Below, piece after piece: positions 7,623-21,511 of a stretch of DNA of 64,000 nucleotides. How positions within the stretch are numbered: position 1 is the stretch's first letter; every line of letters starts with the position of its first letter. Source of the stretch: Archangium lipolyticum (GTDB lineage Bacteria; Myxococcota; Myxococcia; Myxococcales; Myxococcaceae); the NCBI RefSeq assembly GCF_024623785.1, contig NZ_JANKBZ010000002.1, positions 310,001 to 374,000 of the forward strand, in the 5' to 3' direction. Position numbers and translations under genes: made by a program. The notes under the pieces were generated by a model. It was not told the DNA's origin. It did not search any database and was given only the letters and a program-made list of their open reading frames with translations.

Positions 7623-10600
7623 ACGGTCGAGGGGCGAATGGCGCACAGACGCGCACGCCGATGAGGACGTCACGCTGGGTCGGATCGCCCGCCGTGCGGT
7701 TGGCGACGCGGGCGCCAAACTGGTCGTAGTACCAGGCGCCTCCACGCAGGACGATGCGGCCGAGGTCCGCCGTCGCGGGCCTTGTCAGCTCGAACGCGTT
7801 GCCCGCCATGTCGAGCAGACCGAAAGGACTCGCCGAGGCCGGATGGGCGCCGACCTCGTCGGGCCCGAAGGCCGTGGACTCCCGTCCGTACGTCACATCG
7901 ATGTTGACGTCGTCGGGCCGCAGCCGGTCGCCATGCGGGTAGGTGCGGCCGTCGGCGCCCCGGGCGGCACGCTCCCACTCGAGCTCATTGCACAGGCGCG
8001 CCCCGGGCATCCGCCCGGACTGGTCGAGCCAGTAGAAGTACCCCTGGAGGTCCTCGGCCGAGATGCCGGTCAGGGGCAGCTTGCGCCAATCCACCGTCTG
8101 TCGCTCCTCGCGGCCGGGGTAGCGGATCGGCTCCCCCTCGCGCGCCGTGAGGACGATGTCGTTGGAGCGGCGGAAGGAAAAGGTCCAGCCTCCTCCTGGT
8201 TGCTGCCGCAGGGTGACGGCGCCGGCGGTACTGAAATGTGGCTGCTCGAGGACGCGCCGGGCCTCGGCCCCGGGGGGCAGCGTGTCGAGGTAGTCCAGCC
8301 AGTCCTGGAACGTCACCTCCCCGCGCCCGATGAGGTAGCCCTCGCCGAGGCAGAAGCGGTGCAGCGGCGCGGCGCTCATGAAGATCCGAACCTGCTCCGG
8401 GTCGGCGCTGCCCAGCAGGAAGCAGCCAGGAGGAATGTAGACATAGCCCTCGGGCACGGCTTCGGGGAGCACGAGGTGAAGCTGCTCGCGGCCGCCGCGC
8501 GTGAGCAGCAGGGGCAGGTCGACGGGAGCACGGCCAGGACGCGTCACGCGCAGGTGATAGGAGCCCGCGGGGAGCGGCGTGGGGGAGAGGGGCGTGGGAC
8601 CGTGCTCGCTGACAGGCTCGCGGCGCAGCACTCCCTGGGCGTCGCGGACGTAGCGCTCGATGGCGACCTTCGCGCCAGGGGGCTCGGTCACCAGCTCGAG
8701 CTCGGCCGGGGCCGATACCCGCTGCCGCCACTGCGCTCCATCCCTGGCATCTTCGATCAGGTGCTCCAGTCGCTGTCGCAGCTCCTCCTGCGCTCCTTGC
8801 TGGTGGAAGCTCTCGGCGAGCAGCAGGCGCTCGTAGGTGACCCGCAGAAGCAACTCGCGCGCCTCGTCCTGGGCGTGCCCGCGCTCGAGCGCCCGCTCCA
8901 GGGAGCGGGTGGCGCGAGCGTAGGCCCCCTCCGCTTGCTTGAGCCGGGTGAGCGTATCGCTCCAGCGCTGTTCGGCGATGCGCCGGGAGTCCGCGGGGTC
9001 CTTTCCCCCGGCGAGGCTGGAGGAGGCAGGGGGATGACCGTCGAACCACGCGAGCGCCTCCTCCCGGCTTGCCCGCCCCTGCTTTCCGAAGGTGGTGCCC
9101 TCGTCGAGTGTTCCGCGTGCCTCCTGGAGACGCGCGGAGACGAAACTCTCGTCGTCCAGGTATTTCTGCAGACGGGAAGCACCGTAGATGACGGCGAGCA
9201 CGAGCGGCACCATCAGCTGTGCCAGGCGCCGCCCCCAGCGCCGGAGCCTCGCGGCGCGGGAGGAGGCGAGCAGGAAGGCCCGTTCGCGCACCCCCAGCGT
9301 GGAGGGGTCCAGCGGGAGGGCCTCGTCGAGCTGACGCTGGCCCCACAGCGCCTCCCGGGGACGCGACAGGCGCTCCCATTCGGTGCTCGCCGCCTCGATG
9401 CGCTGACGCACCGCGCGGTTGCCAATGTCGTTGTCGAGCCAGTTGCGCAGCGTGCCCCAACTGGTGAGGAGCGAGTCGTGGGCGATTTGATACCGGGCCT
9501 CGCCCGCCGCGGTGCTCGCGTGCAGCAGCCGGCCCTCGACGAGCACTCGCAGGGCGGTGCTGGTGGCCGCGTCCTCCGCCGTGCCGAGCTCCCGCTCACC
9601 ACCCTCTCCGCGCGTGCCCTCGGCCGTCACCAGCCGCAGCAGCAGGCGCCGTGCCGCCTGCAGCCCTGTTGGGTCGAGGCGGGCGAGCACCCCATCGGCG
9701 TGCCGCGACAGCGCTCCGGCGACCCCGCCCATCTCCTCGAGGGCCGTCCGGGTGATGCGACCGTGCACCGGGTCGTGCCGCCGCCAGAGCTCGGTGAGCG
9801 CGAACTGGAGCAGCGGCAGGCTGCCCGCGCCCTGTGCCGTGGACGAGACGAGTGCCTGGATGAGCTCGTCGGACTCGAAGACGACGCCCTGGGCGCGAGC
9901 GGGGCCGACGATGGCCTCGCGCACACCCTCGGCGCTCAGCGGCCGCAGGATGTAGAGCCCTCGCTCGGCCTCTTCGCCCAGCCCCGGCAGCGCGCACACG
10001 CGCGTGAGGAAGTCGCCGCGCACCGTCAGCAGCACGCGCACGCCCGTGGAGGGCAGGGCCAACTCGCCCAGCAGCAGGGCGAAACGCTCCGCCTGCTCGG
10101 GCTCTGCCAGGGTGATGAGCTCCTCGAGCTGGTCGATGAATAGCAGGAGTGCGCGCCGGCCCTCGTGCGCCTCGCGCAGCGCCTGCCCGAAGCCGGTGGG
10201 AGTGGAGGAGAACGCCTCGAAGAGCTCGGCCTCCTTGCGATGCAGCAGGGGCGCGAGCGCGGCGGCCAGGGATTGCAGCGGGCGGCGGCCGGGGCAGAGC
10301 GTCACCGTGGTGCACTCACGGCCCTGGTCCAGCTCGCCCGCGGCCACCCGGGGCAGCACGCCGGCGCGGCACAGCGAGGACTTGCCCACCCCGGAGTCCC
10401 CGGCGACGAGCACCAGGGACTGACGCTGGAGGCGCTCGATCAGGGCGCGGATGTCGTCGTCGCGTCCGAAGAAGAGTGCCCGGTGGTTGGCCTCGAAGGG
10501 GGCGAGGCCGCGATAGGGATTGCCGGTGGCCAGGGGCGCGGACGCGTTGTTCTTCTCCAGCGGCTCCAGCAACTCGCAGACCCGTTCGGCCGAGGCGAAT

Positions 10601-13018: not shown

Positions 13019-13075
13019 GTGGAACTACAAAGTCCTGGTCCTCATGCACTCTGCCCGCATAGGCTGCCGCCATCC

Positions 13076-13765
13076 ATGATGCTCTCTACCTTGGTACGCG
13101 TGCTCGCCGCGTGGCTCGTGCTGCTTCTGTCGCCAATGGCCGCTGCCAGCGATGACACCACTTCCTCCGGGGCCGCACCGCGCGCTCTGGATCGTGTTAC
13201 GGCGGGAGAACTCTCGGAGATGTCGCCTGCGGAGCGGCGAGCTCTCTTCCAGGAGGCCGCGCCGGGAATTCCGATGCCGGCCAATTTCGGCACCGACGAA
13301 CTTGATGACGCTCAGGAGGAAATCAGTGGCCAGTACTACCAGGGGATGGCCGATACGCTGCGGGTGCTGAGTCAGACATCGGCTGCGAACGCGGCTGCTT
13401 TACCGCCTGTGTCAAAGCCAGTCGAGCTTGCTGCGCGGGGCGCGACAAGTGCATTCGGAAATCTGTCGCGGGCTGCCGAGTTTGGAATCAAGCCGTACGG
13501 AGAATTACGGAGCATCCTCCTGGGATCCGGTTTACGGGCACATCACTTGATCGAGCAGAGGTTCGCGAGCTTGATGGGGCAGGACGCGCGGAAGATGCTC
13601 GCGATCGCAGTGACGCCGGCCGAACATCAAGCATTCACGAACGCGTGGCGCCAAGTCATCCCCTACGGCCAGGGCACTGTGAGCGCCACGCGGCAGCAGG
13701 TGCTCGACGCAGCGAGGCAGATCTACTCACGCTCGCCCGAAGTCTTGAAAGCCCTTGGGTTGTAG
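13076..13765 (+). CDS. SitA6-like polymorphic toxin, exported
   Basis: 229 residues. An N-terminal signal sequence (LVRVLAAWLVLLLSPMAAAS) is followed by a variable middle and a compact C-terminal domain with AHHLIEQRF, VTPAEHQAFTNAWRQVIPYG and QQVLDAARQIY. This C-terminus and the adjacent double-CxxCG gene match the pattern of the myxobacterial SitA6/SitI6 kin-discrimination toxins passed between cells by outer-membrane exchange; the family call is from memory of its motifs. SitA toxins are normally lipoproteins, but no lipobox Cys is present here. The His pair in AHH could be catalytic. The gene uses AT-rich codons (for example TTA in GSGL) more often than its neighbours, a hint of transfer. 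ATG 13076 or 13079 may be the start. Confidence 0.65.
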   Translation: MMLSTLVRVLAAWLVLLLSPMAAASDDTTSSGAAPRALDRVTAGELSEMSPAERRALFQEAAPGIPMPANFGTDELDDAQEEISGQYYQGMADTLRVLSQTSAANAAALPPVSKPVELAARGATSAFGNLSRAAEFGIKPYGELRSILLGSGLRAHHLIEQRFASLMGQDARKMLAIAVTPAEHQAFTNAWRQVIPYGQGTVSATRQQVLDAARQIYSRSPEVLKALGL

Positions 13766-13775
13766 GAGGCAGACG

Positions 13776-14582
13776 ATGCAGATCATCCATCGCGTCTCCA
13801 TCTCTTCAACGCCCGAGATTCGTAGCGAATTGGCGGCCATGGGCGTCGTCGTGGGGGCGAGCGGGCTGGTGACCTTCGAGGTCGACGAATCCTTCGATGC
13901 GTGGCCTGCTCTACAACAGTGGATAGCCAGGAGAGGGGCTGTTGACATCGTCAGCACGAAGTTCTCGAAGAAGGAACTTGGCGATGCGCGATGGTTCGCA
14001 CTGGAGCCGGACTGGCACCACGGATACCCGCAGCCGGACGAGGGTCGCCTTGGCTACCGGGAAGCTACCTTCGAGGTGTCGGATTTCTGTGAGCAGTGTG
14101 GCATTGGATTGAAGCAGAAGGCTCCCTTCCAGATGAAGTCCGAGCCGAAGTGGGGCCGCAACGGCATCCTTCAACTCCACTGGGTCTTCGACGAGTTCTT
14201 CGTGATGCCGGAGGTCTGGCGCACTGTCTTCCATCCGAACGGAATCGGTTGCCGGCCCGTTCTCGACGCGAAGGGCGCCGAGCTGAAGACGGTGGTACAG
14301 CTCGTCGTCCGGGAGGAAGTGGGTGTAGGAGTGGAGGGGCTCACTGCGGAGCGGTGTGCACGCTGTGGCCGCGTGAAGTTCCTCCCTGTGACACGAGGTG
14401 CCTTTCCTCCACCCGCGAATGAGCCTTCAGTCCGGATGGTGAAGACCCGGGAGTATTTCGGCAGTGGAGCGTCGGCACATAGGAGGGTCCTGGTTTCACA
14501 GGACGTGGTCCAGGCGCTGGCCGCGGAGAAGGTGAGGGGAGCGTCGGTGCGGCCGATAGCCGTGCGTCTGGATCGCGGATGA
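13776..14582 (+). CDS. SitI6-like double-CxxCG motif immunity protein
   Basis: 268 residues, cytosolic (no signal peptide or membrane segment). Two CxxCG motifs, CEQCG and CARCG, define the myxobacterial double-CXXCG paralogous family, members of which serve as immunity proteins for SitA6-type toxins. They probably form a split zinc ribbon. The gene starts 10 bp after the toxin stop with a strong AGGAGG (13764-13769) 6 bases before ATG 13776, as expected for a co-expressed antidote. The assignment rests on the CxxCG pair plus gene order. Confidence 0.75.
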   Translation: MQIIHRVSISSTPEIRSELAAMGVVVGASGLVTFEVDESFDAWPALQQWIARRGAVDIVSTKFSKKELGDARWFALEPDWHHGYPQPDEGRLGYREATFEVSDFCEQCGIGLKQKAPFQMKSEPKWGRNGILQLHWVFDEFFVMPEVWRTVFHPNGIGCRPVLDAKGAELKTVVQLVVREEVGVGVEGLTAERCARCGRVKFLPVTRGAFPPPANEPSVRMVKTREYFGSGASAHRRVLVSQDVVQALAAEKVRGASVRPIAVRLDRG

Positions 14583-14622: not shown

Positions 14623-17600
14623 TCACTCGTCCGGTGTCTCTCTCCGGGCCCCACGCGCCAGTTGCGAGGCGTACAGGCGCGAGAGGAAGTCGTAGAAGAC
14701 GAGCTCCTCCCGCGCCCCCGCCGCGCGCAGGAGTCGATTCGTCTGCATATGGGCGAAGGCTGCCGCCAACTCGGGAAGGCGCACGCCCAACCGGCCCGAA
14801 GTCTCCGCCTCGCGGAGCGCCGCCGCGATGGGGGCCATCCGCTCGGAGCGGTGGCGGAGGATGTCCATCGCGGGCGTGAGCGGATGCCTCTCGAGGGGCC
14901 CGGGCGTGAAGAGGCGCTCGAGCTCCGTGCGCTCCTGTCGGTAGCGGGCGCCGAGCTGGTGCTCCAGTGCGGCCTTGGGACGGAGCTGCCGCCAGAGGCC
15001 CTCCCGGAGCTTCCGGGCCAGTTCGCCGCGTGCGGCCATGTCGAGCCCGAGCGACTCCCAGAGCGCATCAATGGCTCTCAACGCGAGCCGCCAGCGCCAT
15101 GGTGAGCTCACGGCTCCTCCCAGGCTGGAGAGGAGCGCCAGCACCGCCTCGCTGTCGAGCTGGAAGAGCTGCTCGGCGAGGAGGATGCCCGTCTCGCCGC
15201 CGTAGCGCTCCACCTCACGCTGGTAGGTATCGAGCTGGACGCGCCAGAGCCGGCCATCGGCGAGCAGTGGCGCGGTGGCCTCGTGGAGCGCGGGAAGCAC
15301 CTCGCCCAGGAGCCGCCGGGGCTCTCCGTGGAAGCGCAGGCGCAGGTGCCACTCAGGGTCCCTGTAACGGATGAAGAACCAGCCATCGGCCGCGCCTGAG
15401 CCCAGGACGTCCTCCACCAGCGGCGCCACCACGGTGCGAAGGACGCGATCCGCGGTGACCGGGCCGCAGGAGAGCTTCACATAGAGCCACTCCGAGCCGG
15501 GAGGAAACAGGCGCGGGAGGCTGGGCGCGGGAACCCGCGCCGAAACCGGCACCTCGCGAGCGGTCCGGGCGGGCTCCGGCGTGCGGACGAACGGAATGAC
15601 CAGCTCGTGGACGAAGCGTCCTTCCGGCCCCTGCACGGGGAGCGCATCCGGTCCGGGGAACAGCTCGACCAGCCGTGCCTGGCTCAACCCCCTGGCCCGC
15701 TGGGCGAACGCCTCGATGCTCAGGAGATTGTCGAGATCGACGGGAAGGCGCTGGTCGTTCTCCTCGAGGGCGACGTACCGGGGGAGCCGCAGCTGCTGGC
15801 GCAGCGCCTGGACGGCTCGGAAGAGGGGCTCGCCGCTCGTGGAGCCCAGCATGCGCAGCGTCTGCTCCGGCAGCCACCAGCGCGCCAGGGAGAGCACGAG
15901 CCGCCCCGAGACGACCCTTGGCAGGTAGGGCGCGCCCTCCAACGGTCCCCAGCGCCAGCGGAGGTTCGCGGCCACACCCTGTCCCTGCAGCGCGCCCAGG
16001 AACCGGTAGACCGGGAGGCCTCGTTTGACGTTGTGCGTGGTGGTGAGGCGCGGGAGGACTTCGCGGCCGAGCCTCGCGGAACGGAGGACCACCCGCTCAC
16101 CCACCACGGACACGAGCAACTCGCTGAGCGGAATCCGCTGCTCCTCTGGCGCACCGGAGCGGCCGAGGAACGGAATCTCGTGTTCGCGCAGCAGGGGCCG
16201 GAGCAGGACGTTGCCCACGTGTCCCTCCGGGAGGTGGGCGAGCTCCGCGTGAAGGGCCTCGGGATGGTGGGCCTCCTCGGCCCGGAGCAGCGCCCGGACG
16301 TGGTCGGCTAGGCCCGCATCGGCATGGCAGAAGCGGGCGAGCACGTTGGCTCCCGAGGGACCGTTCACCGAGTGCACGCAGAGGCGGAACTCCCCTCCAT
16401 CCACCGCGGCCTCGGAGGCGGCGGCGAGCGTGGCCACCATGGAGAAGGCCGCCGGCAGCGGCAGCCGCCCCTTCTGCTCCAGGACCTGGAGGTCCTCGGG
16501 TTCCAGCACCAGCTCGGACGCGCCCGAGCGCAGGACGTCATGCAACTTGCGCTGGAGGAAGGTGTGGCGCTCCTCCCAGGGCGTGGTGGGGCTCTCCTCC
16601 TCCCCGTCGAGCTCCAACCCCGACAACAGTGGCGCGGCCTCGAGGGCCGGGGCCTCTCCATCGTCTGGGAAGCCAATGCCGGACTCCGCGTCGAGCACCT
16701 CCAGGAGGGGCACCTCGCGCCGCTCGTAGCGCTCGCGAAAGGCCGTGCGAAAGCGCCGCAGGGCATCGTCCTGGCGCGGGGAGATGCGGTGCAGGAGCTC
16801 GACGGCCGCGAGCGCCTCCTCGAGGACGCCCGGGCCCAGCCGCGCCTCCCGCACCGGCTTCATCAGGTCCACCTGGAACACGGGCTGCCCGCCCGTGGGC
16901 ACCGGCAGGGCTTCCAGCGGCCTCGTGGCGGCGTGGTACCGCACGGGGGGGACACCGAGTCCCTCCCGGTCGAGGGCCTCCAGCGCCACCCGGGTCTCCT
17001 CGAGCACGGCCGCCGCGTCGGTGCCGGACTCGAGCGGTGGCCCGCCGCGGAGCGCCTGGACGAGCGCCAGGGCCGGGTCGATGCCGGTCACCGGCGGCTC
17101 GAGGTCCGGCACCAGTACCTGGCTGTCGATGAGCTTGTCGATGAACTGTTCCGCGTCCTCCAGGTCGATGTCGGGGTCGTGCGCGGCGAGGGCCTCGGCG
17201 AGCGCGCCGCGACGCACGCCGTGCCGGGCCTTCTCCAGCGTGAGCTCGAGGTACTCCGAGGGCGTCAGCGAGGTGGCGCGGTAGGCACGCCCCTCCTGGC
17301 CCGATGTGCTCGGGAGCACCTCGGAGAAGCGGAGCTGGCCGGCGGCGCGGTAGATGCTCGAATTGGGCCGCCAGGTGAGGCGCTCCCTCTGTGCTGGCTC
17401 CCGCGCGAGGGACTCGGAGAGCACCACGAGCAGGCCCATGTCGAGCCGTGTCCGGCGCTGGTAGTCCGCGTGCCCGGCGAGCGAAAGCCGCGTGTCGGCT
17501 CCCAGCCTTCCGCTCGAGCTGCCGCTGAAGAGGCCGAAGGGCGTCGCCCGGGCCGCCATGCGCTGGACGTAGCGCACCAGGGCGCGCTCCACCTGGAGGC

Positions 17601-17886
17601 CGGACCTGCTGTCCGCCGCCTCGCGCCAGCGCGCCAGATGCGCCTCCAGGCCGGGAGAGGCGATGAAGAGCGCCTCGCGCACCTCGGGCCGGTCCACGAG
17701 CGCCGCGAGCCGGGCGCGCAGCAGGGCCCTGTCCGCGGCCAGTGCATCCCCCAGCCGTTCCGGCTCGGCGAGCGCCGTCACGCCAGAGAGAGCCTCTCCC
17801 CAGCGCACCAGCTCGTCGAAGGGAAGCAGGGGAGTCCGGAGAACGAAGAAGCCCGCGGGCCGGGCGCAAGCGGAGGCGTTCCTCAT
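14623..17886 (-). CDS. lanB: Full-length class I lanthipeptide dehydratase (LanB)
   Basis: 1087 residues. The N-terminal glutamylation domain (about 1-700) has the family signature RMAARATPFGLFSG near residue 113 and TRLDMGLLVVLSESLA. The C-terminal SpaB_C/thiopeptide-type elimination domain (about 795-1070) has LYVKLSCGPVTADRVLRTVV and GWFFIRYRDPEWHLRLRFHG. LanB enzymes use glutamyl-tRNA to dehydrate Ser and Thr of a precursor peptide. Both halves are present, so it should act alone. ATG 17886 overlaps the lanC stop (ATGA), showing translational coupling. It is the last gene of the precursor, radical SAM, lanC, lanB operon, convergent with the immunity gene 40 bp away. Confidence 0.92.
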   Translation of the reverse strand: MRNASACARPAGFFVLRTPLLPFDELVRWGEALSGVTALAEPERLGDALAADRALLRARLAALVDRPEVREALFIASPGLEAHLARWREAADSRSGLQVERALVRYVQRMAARATPFGLFSGSSSGRLGADTRLSLAGHADYQRRTRLDMGLLVVLSESLAREPAQRERLTWRPNSSIYRAAGQLRFSEVLPSTSGQEGRAYRATSLTPSEYLELTLEKARHGVRRGALAEALAAHDPDIDLEDAEQFIDKLIDSQVLVPDLEPPVTGIDPALALVQALRGGPPLESGTDAAAVLEETRVALEALDREGLGVPPVRYHAATRPLEALPVPTGGQPVFQVDLMKPVREARLGPGVLEEALAAVELLHRISPRQDDALRRFRTAFRERYERREVPLLEVLDAESGIGFPDDGEAPALEAAPLLSGLELDGEEESPTTPWEERHTFLQRKLHDVLRSGASELVLEPEDLQVLEQKGRLPLPAAFSMVATLAAASEAAVDGGEFRLCVHSVNGPSGANVLARFCHADAGLADHVRALLRAEEAHHPEALHAELAHLPEGHVGNVLLRPLLREHEIPFLGRSGAPEEQRIPLSELLVSVVGERVVLRSARLGREVLPRLTTTHNVKRGLPVYRFLGALQGQGVAANLRWRWGPLEGAPYLPRVVSGRLVLSLARWWLPEQTLRMLGSTSGEPLFRAVQALRQQLRLPRYVALEENDQRLPVDLDNLLSIEAFAQRARGLSQARLVELFPGPDALPVQGPEGRFVHELVIPFVRTPEPARTAREVPVSARVPAPSLPRLFPPGSEWLYVKLSCGPVTADRVLRTVVAPLVEDVLGSGAADGWFFIRYRDPEWHLRLRFHGEPRRLLGEVLPALHEATAPLLADGRLWRVQLDTYQREVERYGGETGILLAEQLFQLDSEAVLALLSSLGGAVSSPWRWRLALRAIDALWESLGLDMAARGELARKLREGLWRQLRPKAALEHQLGARYRQERTELERLFTPGPLERHPLTPAMDILRHRSERMAPIAAALREAETSGRLGVRLPELAAAFAHMQTNRLLRAAGAREELVFYDFLSRLYASQLARGARRETPDE

Positions 17887-19073
17887 GGAATGTCCATCAG
17901 CAGCAGCCTGTCCCATTCGGGCTCCACCGACGTGACGGCCGAGAGCAGGGTCAGTCCGAGTCCCGTGGCCCCCATCAGCAGGCGCTCTTCCCTCGGCACC
18001 TCGGGCCCGCACAGGTCGAGCGCCCGGTCGAACCAGTTCCGCGCCGCATCGAGGAACAGGGCCTCGTTCGTGGCCTGATACAGGCGGTTGTAGAGGTGTC
18101 CCAGTCCGGCCGCGCCGTGGCAGAGGAACGCATCGACGACGCCGGTCTTCTCGGGAGCGAGGGTGGCGGCACGGCGGGCTCCCGCGAGCGCCGCCTCTTC
18201 CCAGGAGGGCTCCCCCAGGTGACGCGCGGCCAGCAGCAGCGTGACGGCGACGCCCGGGTTCCCATAACACCAGGCGCTGCGCGCGGGCTCGCGGGGCGCT
18301 CCGGGCGCGAGGAGGGCCGGAAAGTCACCGGGTGCCTCTCCCTCCGAGAAGCGCTGCGCGAGGAGCCAGCGCACGCACCCCTCCAACAGTTGGTGTCCTT
18401 CCTCGCCGCCCACGCCGAAGCTCCGCGCCCGCGCCAGGAAGCCGATGACCCCTGGCACACCATGCGCGACCCCGAGGTCCACACACCCCTCCGGGTAGCG
18501 TGACTGGCGCTCGGGCGAGAGCAGCTGCGGAGGCGTCCGGAAGCTCCATCCTTCTGGCTGGGGCTCGGCGAGCGCGCGCAGGTGTTCGAACACCCGCCGC
18601 ACCAGGGCGTGCCCCCGCGGGCGCCGGTGCCGCTCGAGGCCGTAGACGCCCAGGCCGACGAGGCCGGAGATGAGATCGTACTTCCGCTCCCAGCGCGGCA
18701 CGGCGAGCGTCTCCAGCAGCACGCCGTCGATGTTCGCGTTGAGGTCGACCTCCTGGGACTCCTGCCCCCAGGTGTGTTCCACCACCCAGGCTACGCCGGT
18801 GAGGCCCTCGTGGAGCCCCGGGCCCAGGCCAGCCGAGCGGAGCGTATCGATGGCCTCGTCGAGGCACGCATCCCGCCGCTCTTCGTGGCCCTCGTCCGGG
18901 TAGGCGCGCGCGAGGTAGTTCCACCACAGCGCCTGCTGGCTCCTCACGACGCAGGTGGCGGAGCGCGCACGGTTCTCGGGCGCCGGAGCGTCGAACGCCT
19001 CGGCCACGGCCTGGAGAAAGGCCAGGGCCCGCTCAGCCCGCGTGCCCTCGAGGATGGGCGTCCACTGCTTCAC
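17883..19073 (-). CDS. lanC: Lanthionine synthetase C family cyclase (LanC)
   Basis: 396 residues. The LanC zinc ligands are all visible: C269 (AWCYGNPG), C318 and H319 (LCHGAAG). The catalytic-type His is in GVAHGVPG, and LLMGATGLGL closes the toroid. LanC adds Cys thiols to dehydrated Ser/Thr to make (methyl)lanthionine rings. GTG 19073 overlaps the upstream radical SAM stop (GTGA), matching the 4-base coupling used downstream. An in-frame start at 19127 would overlap by 58 bp and is less likely. It acts with the LanB encoded immediately downstream on the 59-residue precursor encoded at the operon start. Confidence 0.92.
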   Translation of the reverse strand: MKQWTPILEGTRAERALAFLQAVAEAFDAPAPENRARSATCVVRSQQALWWNYLARAYPDEGHEERRDACLDEAIDTLRSAGLGPGLHEGLTGVAWVVEHTWGQESQEVDLNANIDGVLLETLAVPRWERKYDLISGLVGLGVYGLERHRRPRGHALVRRVFEHLRALAEPQPEGWSFRTPPQLLSPERQSRYPEGCVDLGVAHGVPGVIGFLARARSFGVGGEEGHQLLEGCVRWLLAQRFSEGEAPGDFPALLAPGAPREPARSAWCYGNPGVAVTLLLAARHLGEPSWEEAALAGARRAATLAPEKTGVVDAFLCHGAAGLGHLYNRLYQATNEALFLDAARNWFDRALDLCGPEVPREERLLMGATGLGLTLLSAVTSVEPEWDRLLLMDIP

Positions 19074-20323
19074 GCCACGGAGCGCTTGGGCTCGGGCACC
19101 GGCCAGGCTTCCCACCCGGCGGGCCATTGCACGCGGTCGTAGGTGAAGTGCAGCTCATCGCCCTCGGGCCAGGGGGCGTCCACGGGCTCCTCCACGAGGC
19201 GGAGCACGCCATGGTCGAACGGTTGGCCGGGAGCGGGGACGTCGCGCACCACCCGCTCGCGCACTCCGCGCCGGGCCTGCTCGAGCGTGCGGGAGTGGCA
19301 GTACGGGTTGTTGCCGCGCCGGTTGAAGAGGACGCTGGCCATCTGGCTGCAGCCGCCCCGGCACACCTCGGCATAGCGGCAGCTTCCGCAGAAGCCCCAC
19401 ATATGGGCGGCGCCCTCATCCGTGCCGGCGGTGGTGTTGAAGGTCAGCTCGCGCGACTGGAGGATCTCACTGAGCGGCTGCTTGCGGATGTTGCCGCCGA
19501 TGTACTCCGCCGGCAGGGTGGGGCAGCCCTTGATGGAGCCGTCGGCGTGGATGCCCAGCACGGAGATGCCGGCCATGCAGCCCGTCCAGATCTGCCCCGG
19601 GCTCTTGGCGAAGATGGTGTCGTCGTACGGACCGAAGTAGCCGATGTCGTTGGCCGGCTGCACGGCGATGACGCCCTCCGCCTGCGCGCGCAGGGCCACC
19701 CGCGCCAGCGTCCGGTAGAAGGCATCCAGCTCGGCCGGCTGGAGCAGCATCCAGATGTTGTCCCCACCGTTGCCCATGGCCGAGGTGAGTTGGATCTGCC
19801 AGCCCTTGACCCCCGCGTCCCGCAGGCGCTCGTAGAGCTGGGGCAGCTCCGGCGCGGACAAGCGGTTCACCTGGGTGTTGGCCGTGTACAGCAGGCCCAC
19901 GTCACGGAAGTGACGGAAGCTCTGGAAGCAGAAGAAGAACGAGCCGTCCCGGCCGCGGATCCGATCGTGCGTGGCCTGCAGCCCATCCACGGAGACGGAC
20001 ACCTGGTTGATGCCCGCCTCCTTCATCTTGCGCGCCGTTTCGCGCGAGATGCCGTAACCGCCCGTGGTCATCGAGCAGGTCATCCCATGGGAGGTGATGG
20101 CCTGCGCGATCTGCAACCAATCGGGCCTCAGGAAGGCCTCACCGCCCTCGATGGTCACCTCGGTGATGCCGACCTCGGCGAGCTGCCGCGCCAGATCCAA
20201 CGCCTCGTCCGTCGTCAGCTCGTTCTCCCGCTGGCTCCCTGCCCGCGAACCACAGTGGTTGCAGGCGAGGTTGCACTTGAGGGTCAGCTCCCACACGGCG
20301 TACGCCGTGCGGCGGCGTCGCAT
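19070..20323 (-). CDS. Radical SAM/SPASM peptide-modifying enzyme
   Basis: About 417 residues from ATG 20323. The SAM-binding cluster CNLACNHC is at residues 17-24, followed by the GGEAFLRPDW motif. The C-terminal SPASM auxiliary-cluster domain has GCMAGISVLGI, IKGCPTLP and CGSCRYAEVCRGGC plus a last Cys in NPYCHS. Such enzymes install sactionine thioethers, C-C crosslinks or other radical modifications on RiPP precursors. Lying between the precursor and lanC, this one should act on the same peptide. The start is uncertain: a TTG at 20368 in frame would add 15 Pro-rich residues, and neither start has a clear Shine-Dalgarno sequence. The modification type cannot be read from sequence. Confidence 0.88.
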   Translation of the reverse strand: MRRRRTAYAVWELTLKCNLACNHCGSRAGSQRENELTTDEALDLARQLAEVGITEVTIEGGEAFLRPDWLQIAQAITSHGMTCSMTTGGYGISRETARKMKEAGINQVSVSVDGLQATHDRIRGRDGSFFFCFQSFRHFRDVGLLYTANTQVNRLSAPELPQLYERLRDAGVKGWQIQLTSAMGNGGDNIWMLLQPAELDAFYRTLARVALRAQAEGVIAVQPANDIGYFGPYDDTIFAKSPGQIWTGCMAGISVLGIHADGSIKGCPTLPAEYIGGNIRKQPLSEILQSRELTFNTTAGTDEGAAHMWGFCGSCRYAEVCRGGCSQMASVLFNRRGNNPYCHSRTLEQARRGVRERVVRDVPAPGQPFDHGVLRLVEEPVDAPWPEGDELHFTYDRVQWPAGWEAWPVPEPKRSVA

Positions 20324-20416
20324 GGGCGCGGGTTCGGGCTGTGAAACGCTGGTCTCTGGAGGTGCCAAGGTCGTCGAGGAGGCTGAGGGCGGTTCAGGAC
20401 AGCCGGTACGGAGGGG

Positions 20417-20596
20417 CTACTTGCCGGTGGGGAAGCACAGCTCGAGCTCGGTCGGGGGCAGGCCGTAACGCGCCGCGCCGCCGCGAACCGTCTCGAGGGA
20501 CTCCTTGTCCAGATCCAGCAGCTTGCGCGCGCGCTCCTTCTGGCGATCCACCACCTCGGTCCGCGGGAACACCGGCTTCTTCTCGGTCTTGTTCAT
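20417..20596 (-). CDS. RiPP/lanthipeptide precursor peptide
   Basis: 59 residues, encoded first in the operon. A charged leader (1-40) contains LLDLDKESLETV, which resembles class I leader recognition motifs, and ends in the double glycine G39-G40. The inferred core is AARYGLPPTELELCFPTGK (19 residues) with a single Cys (C54), two Thr (T49, T57) and no Ser. One methyllanthionine ring T49-C54 is therefore the only obvious LanBC product; T57 could stay as dehydrobutyrine. Tyr44, Phe55 or C54 are possible radical SAM targets. AGGAG lies about 8 bases before ATG 20596 and a sigma-70-like promoter precedes it. The cleavage site is inferred. Confidence 0.75.
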   Translation of the reverse strand: MNKTEKKPVFPRTEVVDRQKERARKLLDLDKESLETVRGGAARYGLPPTELELCFPTGK

Positions 20597-20658: not shown

Positions 20659-20687
20659 ACCCCTCTAATCCGAAAGGGGAGAAAGGC

Positions 20688-20707
20688 GGGGCCCCCCACA
20701 AGGCCCC
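20688..20707 (-). terminator. Hairpin after trpA
   Basis: Minus-strand stem GGGGCC/GGCCCC with an 8-nt loop, 12 bp after the trpA stop, followed by a pyrimidine-rich CTTTCTCCCCTTT. It separates the trp operon from the RiPP operon transcribed in the same direction. The stem is short, so read-through is possible. Confidence 0.45.
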
Positions 20708-20719
20708 ACCCGGCACGGT

Positions 20720-21511
20720 TCAGCGCTTGAGGCCGCGCTTGATGTCGGCGCACACCTGACGGGCCGCCGCGGGTCCATCGGCCTGTGCCGCGCGGACGAT
20801 GGCGCTGCCCACCACCACGCCATCCGCGTGGGCGCCCACCACCCGGGCCTGCTCCGCGCTGGAGATGCCGAAGCCCGCCACCACGGGCACGGGCGACAGG
20901 CGCCGCACCAGCTCCAGCCGCTCGGAGAGGTTGGCGGGCAGCTCCGAGCGCATGCCCGTCACGCCCGCCACCGACACGCAGTAGACGAAGCCCCGCGCGT
21001 CCTTCGCGATGGACCCGGCGCGGGCCGGCGACGTGGTGGGGGCGCACAGCGGGATGAGCTCCAGCCCCTCCTTGTCGAAGGCCGCGCGGAGGCTCGCGCT
21101 CTCCTCGGGCGGCAGGTCCGGCAGGATGGTGCCCGACACACCGCGCTCCCGCGCCAGCTTCGCGTAGCGTTCCTCGCCCATGGCCATGACGACGTTGACG
21201 TACGTCATGATGACCAGCGGCGTCTGGGGGCAGCGCGCGCGCACCGCCGGCACCACCTCGTCCAGCACCCGCTTGAGCGTGGAGCCAGCCTTCAGGGCCC
21301 GCTCGGACGCGCCCTGGATGACGGGGCCGTCGGCGATGGGATCGCTGAACGCGACACCAATCTCCAGGATGTCCGCGCCACCCTCCACGCACGCGGCGAA
21401 CACGTCCACCGAGCGGGGAAGGTCCGGATCCCCCGCCATGGCGTACGCCACCAGCGTGCCCTCACCGCGGGCCTTCGCCCGGGCGAACGCCTCCGCGATC
21501 TCCCCGCTCAT
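20720..21511 (-). CDS. trpA: Tryptophan synthase alpha chain
   Basis: 263 residues, normal length for Trp[20 protein letters not shown] holds the catalytic Glu and Asp, and the C-terminal [12 protein letters not shown] is the phosphate-binding loop of the TIM barrel. It cleaves indole-3-glycerol phosphate and channels indole to TrpB. Start ATG 21511 overlaps the trpB stop by 4 bases. It is the last gene of the trp operon. Confidence 0.97.

Follow-up and report, generated by a model that had tools for sequence, protein, structure and literature searches.

A putative spliceotide-lanthipeptide hybrid operon in Archangium lipolyticum, with a radical SAM enzyme, LanC and LanB encoded beside one short precursor

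Archangium lipolyticum carries an operon in which a short precursor peptide gene is followed, on one strand, by genes for a radical SAM enzyme (rSAM), a LanC-like cyclase and a LanB dehydratase. Judged from sequence comparison, the operon probably yields a spliceotide-lanthipeptide hybrid from one precursor, with rSAM splicing at Tyr44 and a LanB/LanC ring at Cys54. Whether this amounts to a fused natural pathway, in which a splicease and class I LanB/LanC act on one precursor to give a peptide with both an alpha-ketoamide in its backbone and a lanthionine ring, is in our judgement evenly balanced. No hybrid with both chemistries on one precursor was found in the literature searched, the principal survey of spliceases (Scott et al. 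2022) lying outside it, and splicease chemistry in lanthipeptides has so far been discussed as an engineering goal (PMC10373908). Positions refer to the window, the whole 64,000-nucleotide stretch analysed (contig NZ_JANKBZ010000002.1, 310,001 to 374,000 of the forward strand; assembly GCF_024623785.1), and are collected in Table 1. The main comparison is with a second genome of the same genus (G003).

Table 1. Features of the precursor, the modifying genes and the adjoining inverted repeat.
Feature	Position	Strand	Remarks
Precursor peptide gene, 59 aa	20417..20596	-	Leader 1-40 ends in GG; core 41-59 = AARYGLPPTELELCFPTGK
R43-Y44-G45 codons, X-Tyr-Gly splice site	20462..20470	-	Predicted C8H9NO loss from Tyr44; Tyr 13/13, Gly 11/13 in homologues
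Candidate (methyl)lanthionine residues	20426..20452	-	Thr49 20450-20452, Cys54 20435-20437, Thr57 20426-20428; Thr49-Cys54 preferred
Radical SAM/SPASM enzyme, TIGR04103-like putative splicease	19070..20344	-	Likely ATG start 20323, ORF open to 20368; CX3CX2C and SPASM cysteines invariant
LanC-like cyclase	17883..19073	-	Likely GTG start 19073 overlapping rSAM stop (GTGA), ORF open to 19127; PF05147 E 3.7e-34
LanB, full-length glutamylation-elimination dehydratase	14623..17886	-	ATG overlaps LanC stop (ATGA); PF04738 E 1.9e-162, PF14028 E 2.9e-64
GC-rich inverted repeat 3' of trpA, possible terminator	20686..20711	-	Read by eye; absent from scan output

The precursor frame is preceded by a good Shine-Dalgarno sequence (AGGAG), and its translation divides after GG40 into leader and core as MNKTEKKPVFPRTEVVDRQKERARKLLDLDKESLETVRGG/AARYGLPPTELELCFPTGK. 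A reading of this DNA made from the sequence only had described a 19-residue core with a single Cys (C54) and Thr only at positions 49 and 57. That description is exact for the minus-strand frame, and Ser is absent as well. Across codons 1-51 the window and G003 differ at six bases, five of them synonymous and one a conservative replacement (dN 0.009, dS 0.14). Because these codons are kept in G003, and eleven further homologous precursors occur in the family, comparative analysis confirms a genuine precursor gene and not a chance ORF. The C-terminal tail is strongly divergent, TELELCFPTGK in the window against TELECNPSSPTKTPTTK in G003, through substitutions and an 18-base indel. The G003 core (AARYGLPPTELECNPSSPTKTPTTK) holds one Cys, two Ser and five Thr, and T49 is retained in both.

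The order precursor, rSAM, LanC, LanB is kept in G003. Profile search assigned rSAM plus SPASM, LANC_like and Lant_dehydr_N plus C domains to the three modifying genes, so that the three enzymes proposed in the sequence-only reading are real; its suggestion that all three share C54 was an interpretation, not an observation. As the 4-bp overlaps at the LanC and LanB starts are identical in the window and G003, rSAM, LanC and LanB look translationally coupled. Upstream of the precursor lie a trpA-like gene (20720-21511), a trpB-like gene beside it and then a PRA isomerase gene, and the inverted repeat between trpA and the precursor possibly separates the trp genes from the RiPP operon. A sigma-70 promoter scan returned none above threshold. 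Neither a transporter nor a peptidase gene lies in the operon; there is no C39 peptidase in the window, and six strong C39 domains are found elsewhere in the genome. Past the other end of the operon, positions 13019-14582 on the plus strand encode a predicted secreted protein and then a protein with paired CxxC motifs, with no Pfam match, a pair that presumably resembles the myxobacterial SitA/SitI toxin-immunity pair.

Both Lan enzymes appear complete. In LanC, WCYG and LCHG align to the Cys and Cys-His zinc ligands of NisC, and the YD and AHG motifs are also aligned. LanB (1087 aa) carries both the glutamylation and the elimination domain and matches MibB and NisB. Their relatives form canonical class I clusters in the same bacterial family, with LanC followed by LanB; one of their precursors reads MNPLQTQTQKKLVLNKETLRNLQGSE...TCTRACD. 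K-E-[ST]-L, present in leaders beside canonical LanBC, also occurs in the window leader (LLDLDKESLETV), whose motif LDLDKESL is closer to those leaders (LVLNKETL, LSLNKETL, LRLNKETL) than to stand-alone spliceotide leaders (LELDENTL, in LELDENTLEGV and similar). This likeness hints at a leader tuned to LanB, though only as a single evolutionary event.

Searches at family, class and phylum level yielded 13 precursors that have this leader, including those of the window and G003. The alignment of homologous precursors proposed in the sequence-only reading could thus be examined for invariant residues. Tyr is present in every precursor, followed by Gly in 11 and by Ala in two (L110 and L112, reading RYALPP), and then by Pro-Pro in all 13; the residue before Tyr in the relatives is R, K, D, E or I. 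Cys occurs only in the window and G003 and in none of the other 11 cores. Among 12 precursor and rSAM pairs, LanB and LanC lie near rSAM only in the window and G003, the two with a Cys precursor, and the ten sister pairs have neither LanBC nor a core Cys. In a tree of 42 rSAM proteins, window and G003 are paired (100/99) within a group of 12 members (100/100).

These comparisons bear on the reading that the operon makes a spliceotide only: rSAM would splice RYG, LanB and LanC would serve another peptide or be losing function, and Cys54 would stay free or oxidised. We regard this as unlikely, though it has a case. The ten sister pairs manage without LanBC, LanC and LanB evolve about four times faster than rSAM (dN/dS between window and G003 of 0.23 and 0.21, against 0.05), the C-terminal tail differs strongly between the two genomes, and the window genome has at least two further LanB genes. 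Against it stand the coupled GTGA and ATGA junctions in both genomes and the presence of Cys solely alongside LanBC. The LanC and LanB frames are moreover intact, with substitution ratios that indicate persisting purifying selection. Nor was another substrate with this leader found: the sequence-only reading had allowed for a second, Cys/Ser/Thr-rich precursor, but a whole-genome search by leader homology, which sees only related leaders, returned the window copy only.

The target of rSAM can be approached through its family. Among 68 models the best was TIGR04103 (nif11-class maturase 3), which matched over nearly the whole model at 621.6 bits (E 4.9e-187), below its curated cut-off of 725 and so short of strict membership. 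Cyanobacterial members that have XYG precursors are 58-63% identical to it, and in 63 of 71 loci of cyanobacterial rSAM relatives the 1.7 kb upstream hold a small ORF with YG[LIVMAFT]..P, compared with 0-4% of equally sized control windows. We take IPR026482 to be the same group as TIGR04103. PlpX, the prototype splicease, is assigned to IPR026482 (PMC11002830); XYG is the splice motif of PlpXY, and its splice tags include GGPIRPGYGLPI, for example IRPGYGLPI and IRPLYGLPI (PMC10533398). The window core contains the X-Tyr-Gly motif that PlpX-type systems need, reading R-Y-G-L-P-P, the same type of site as in those tags. Because of the conservation among precursors and the upstream YG ORFs in the loci of relatives, the predicted conserved target of this rSAM group is the Tyr in XYG, with no part played by Cys54. 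Tyr44, which the sequence-only reading had listed as an alternative target, is thereby strongly supported.

PlpXY requires PlpY, and PlpY is possibly dispensable in some splicease systems. No PF05402 match to a PlpY/PqqD-like RRE gene was found within 220 kb of the cluster, and PlpY, a truncated RRE, could escape such detection; the neighbours listed for the ten stand-alone precursor and rSAM pairs held no third gene common to them. LanB may supply the RRE for rSAM. The absent PlpY-like partner therefore weakens the claim of plain PlpX-type membership, not that of splicease chemistry.

A further possibility is that rSAM alters Tyr44 otherwise, by crosslinking, epimerisation or partial excision, while LanBC form the thioether ring. 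The function of rSAM is deduced from its family alone, its TIGR04103 score falls under the cut-off, and the two Tyr-Ala precursors depart from the motif; yet the best family, the motif and the position of the motif all fit characterised spliceases, and we consider this outcome improbable. Very much less credible is a sactipeptide or ranthipeptide, in which rSAM would build a thioether from Cys54 in competition with LanC, as the sequence-only reading had feared: the core does have a Cys and SkfB is the closest solved structure by sequence (E 1.3e-16), a match confined to the radical SAM core (residues 18-193), but the StsB, SkfB and PapB models reach 96, 70 and 57 bits where TIGR04103 reaches 622, and the ten orthologous pairs lack the Cys and keep the Tyr, so that sactionine formation at C54 was set aside. 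A dimer linked through C54, also raised in that reading, was dropped, there being neither evidence nor need for one.

The preferred hybrid reading would proceed as follows. rSAM would splice at R43-Y44-G45, cutting one Tyr from the backbone. LanB would dehydrate Thr49 (or Thr57), and the addition of Cys54 by LanC would close a single methyllanthionine ring. The simplest ring is Thr49-Cys54, favoured by what both genomes retain: Thr49 with a Cys four or five residues further on. With each chemistry confined to its own part of the core, there would be no competition for Cys54. A C39 peptidase-transporter encoded at another locus would probably remove the leader after GG, and the product would be an arginyl alpha-ketoamide whose tail is constrained by the thioether. 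Spliceotides reportedly owe protease inhibition to their beta-residues (PMC10373908), and because Arg precedes the ketoamide the product would plausibly inhibit trypsin-like proteases. The choice of protease may depend on the residue before Tyr, and the prime side of the inhibitor may be made more rigid by the ring. The genes, their coupling, the XYG conservation and the match between Cys and LanBC are read directly from the sequences, whereas the chemistry, the ring pattern, the order of the steps, the cleavage and the function are deduced from them.

In favour of the hybrid we count the best-scoring model, the invariant Tyr, the restriction of Cys to loci with LanBC, the overlapping genes, the intact LanBC and the LanBC-like leader. 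Counted against it are the score below the TIGR04103 cut-off, the lack of a nearby PlpY-like RRE and of a transporter or peptidase in the operon, and the faster evolution of LanBC. The core meets the need of a class I lanthipeptide for Cys and Ser/Thr only minimally; one Cys and two Thr are a poor endowment for a lanthipeptide, and Pro-Thr-Glu is an awkward context for dehydration. Moreover, as its two genomes are closely related, the match between Cys and LanBC is one independent event.

Several relatives show other arrangements. An orphan precursor copy (L227, about 9516-9653 in G005:C402; core SAEYGLPPPDEDIIKNHKLK) has no rSAM within about 10 kb and is possibly spliced in trans. Further out among myxobacterial relatives, the upstream neighbour of rSAM encodes repeats such as IAMRYGLRPP, and in L034, L035, L036, L037, L087 and L114 the proteins encoded upstream of rSAM have a repeated XYG unit (for example PPIAMRYGLRPP) in 3-5 or more copies, which suggests multiply spliced proteins. 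Relatives of rSAM with 43-48% identity adjoin small Cys-rich proteins in L042, L118, L119, L047, L025 and, in the window's own genome, L041 (10904, plus strand; G000:C7). These proteins have a lipobox-like ...LMA-C-YG-MPPC or LSA-C-YG-P; if XYG were spliced there, X would be a Cys modified by lipoprotein enzymes.

If the hybrid reading is right, the operon would be a natural case in which two widely different RiPP chemistries meet on a single 19-residue core, and close relatives offer uncombined counterparts for comparison (the ten pairs with a splicease only and many clusters with LanBC only). It would show how a pathway can acquire a LanC-LanB cassette and whether the same leader can serve a splicease and LanB alike. 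It would also be a compact basis from which to develop alpha-ketoamide protease inhibitors constrained by a ring.

Among known systems, the PlpX/PlpY spliceotide systems (Pleurocapsa plp; IPR026482) share with the window an rSAM plus SPASM enzyme whose best NCBIfam model is TIGR04103 and an X-Tyr-Gly-[L/I/V]-Pro core soon after the GG leader end. Unlike them, the window has a leader that is short and not of the nif11 type, an operon that includes LanC and LanB, and a Cys/Thr tail after the splice site, and no PlpY-like RRE was found near the operon. The sactipeptide enzymes StsB and SkfB have the same radical SAM/SPASM architecture, but their models score at least six-fold lower and Cys is not conserved in the window's substrate family. 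Class I lanthipeptide clusters from this bacterial family (for example L200, L201 and L202) resemble the window in their full-length LanB (50-53% identity), LanC (37-46%), lanC-lanB order and the leader motif LxLxKE[ST]L, whereas their precursors have several Cys/Ser/Thr and no XYG, with no splicease within the stretch examined. The initial view that a splicease beside a lanthionine synthetase is unique to the window was dropped, as tblastn with LanM proteins placed LanM within a few kilobases of a splicease in three of 78 cyanobacterial loci (L174, L189 and L190). As in the window, lanthionine synthetase and splicease genes share one neighbourhood in these three loci; unlike in the window, the synthetase is a class II LanM, the precursors with Cys lack XYG and those with XYG lack Cys. 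On the sequences compared, what sets the window apart is XYG and Cys on a single precursor.
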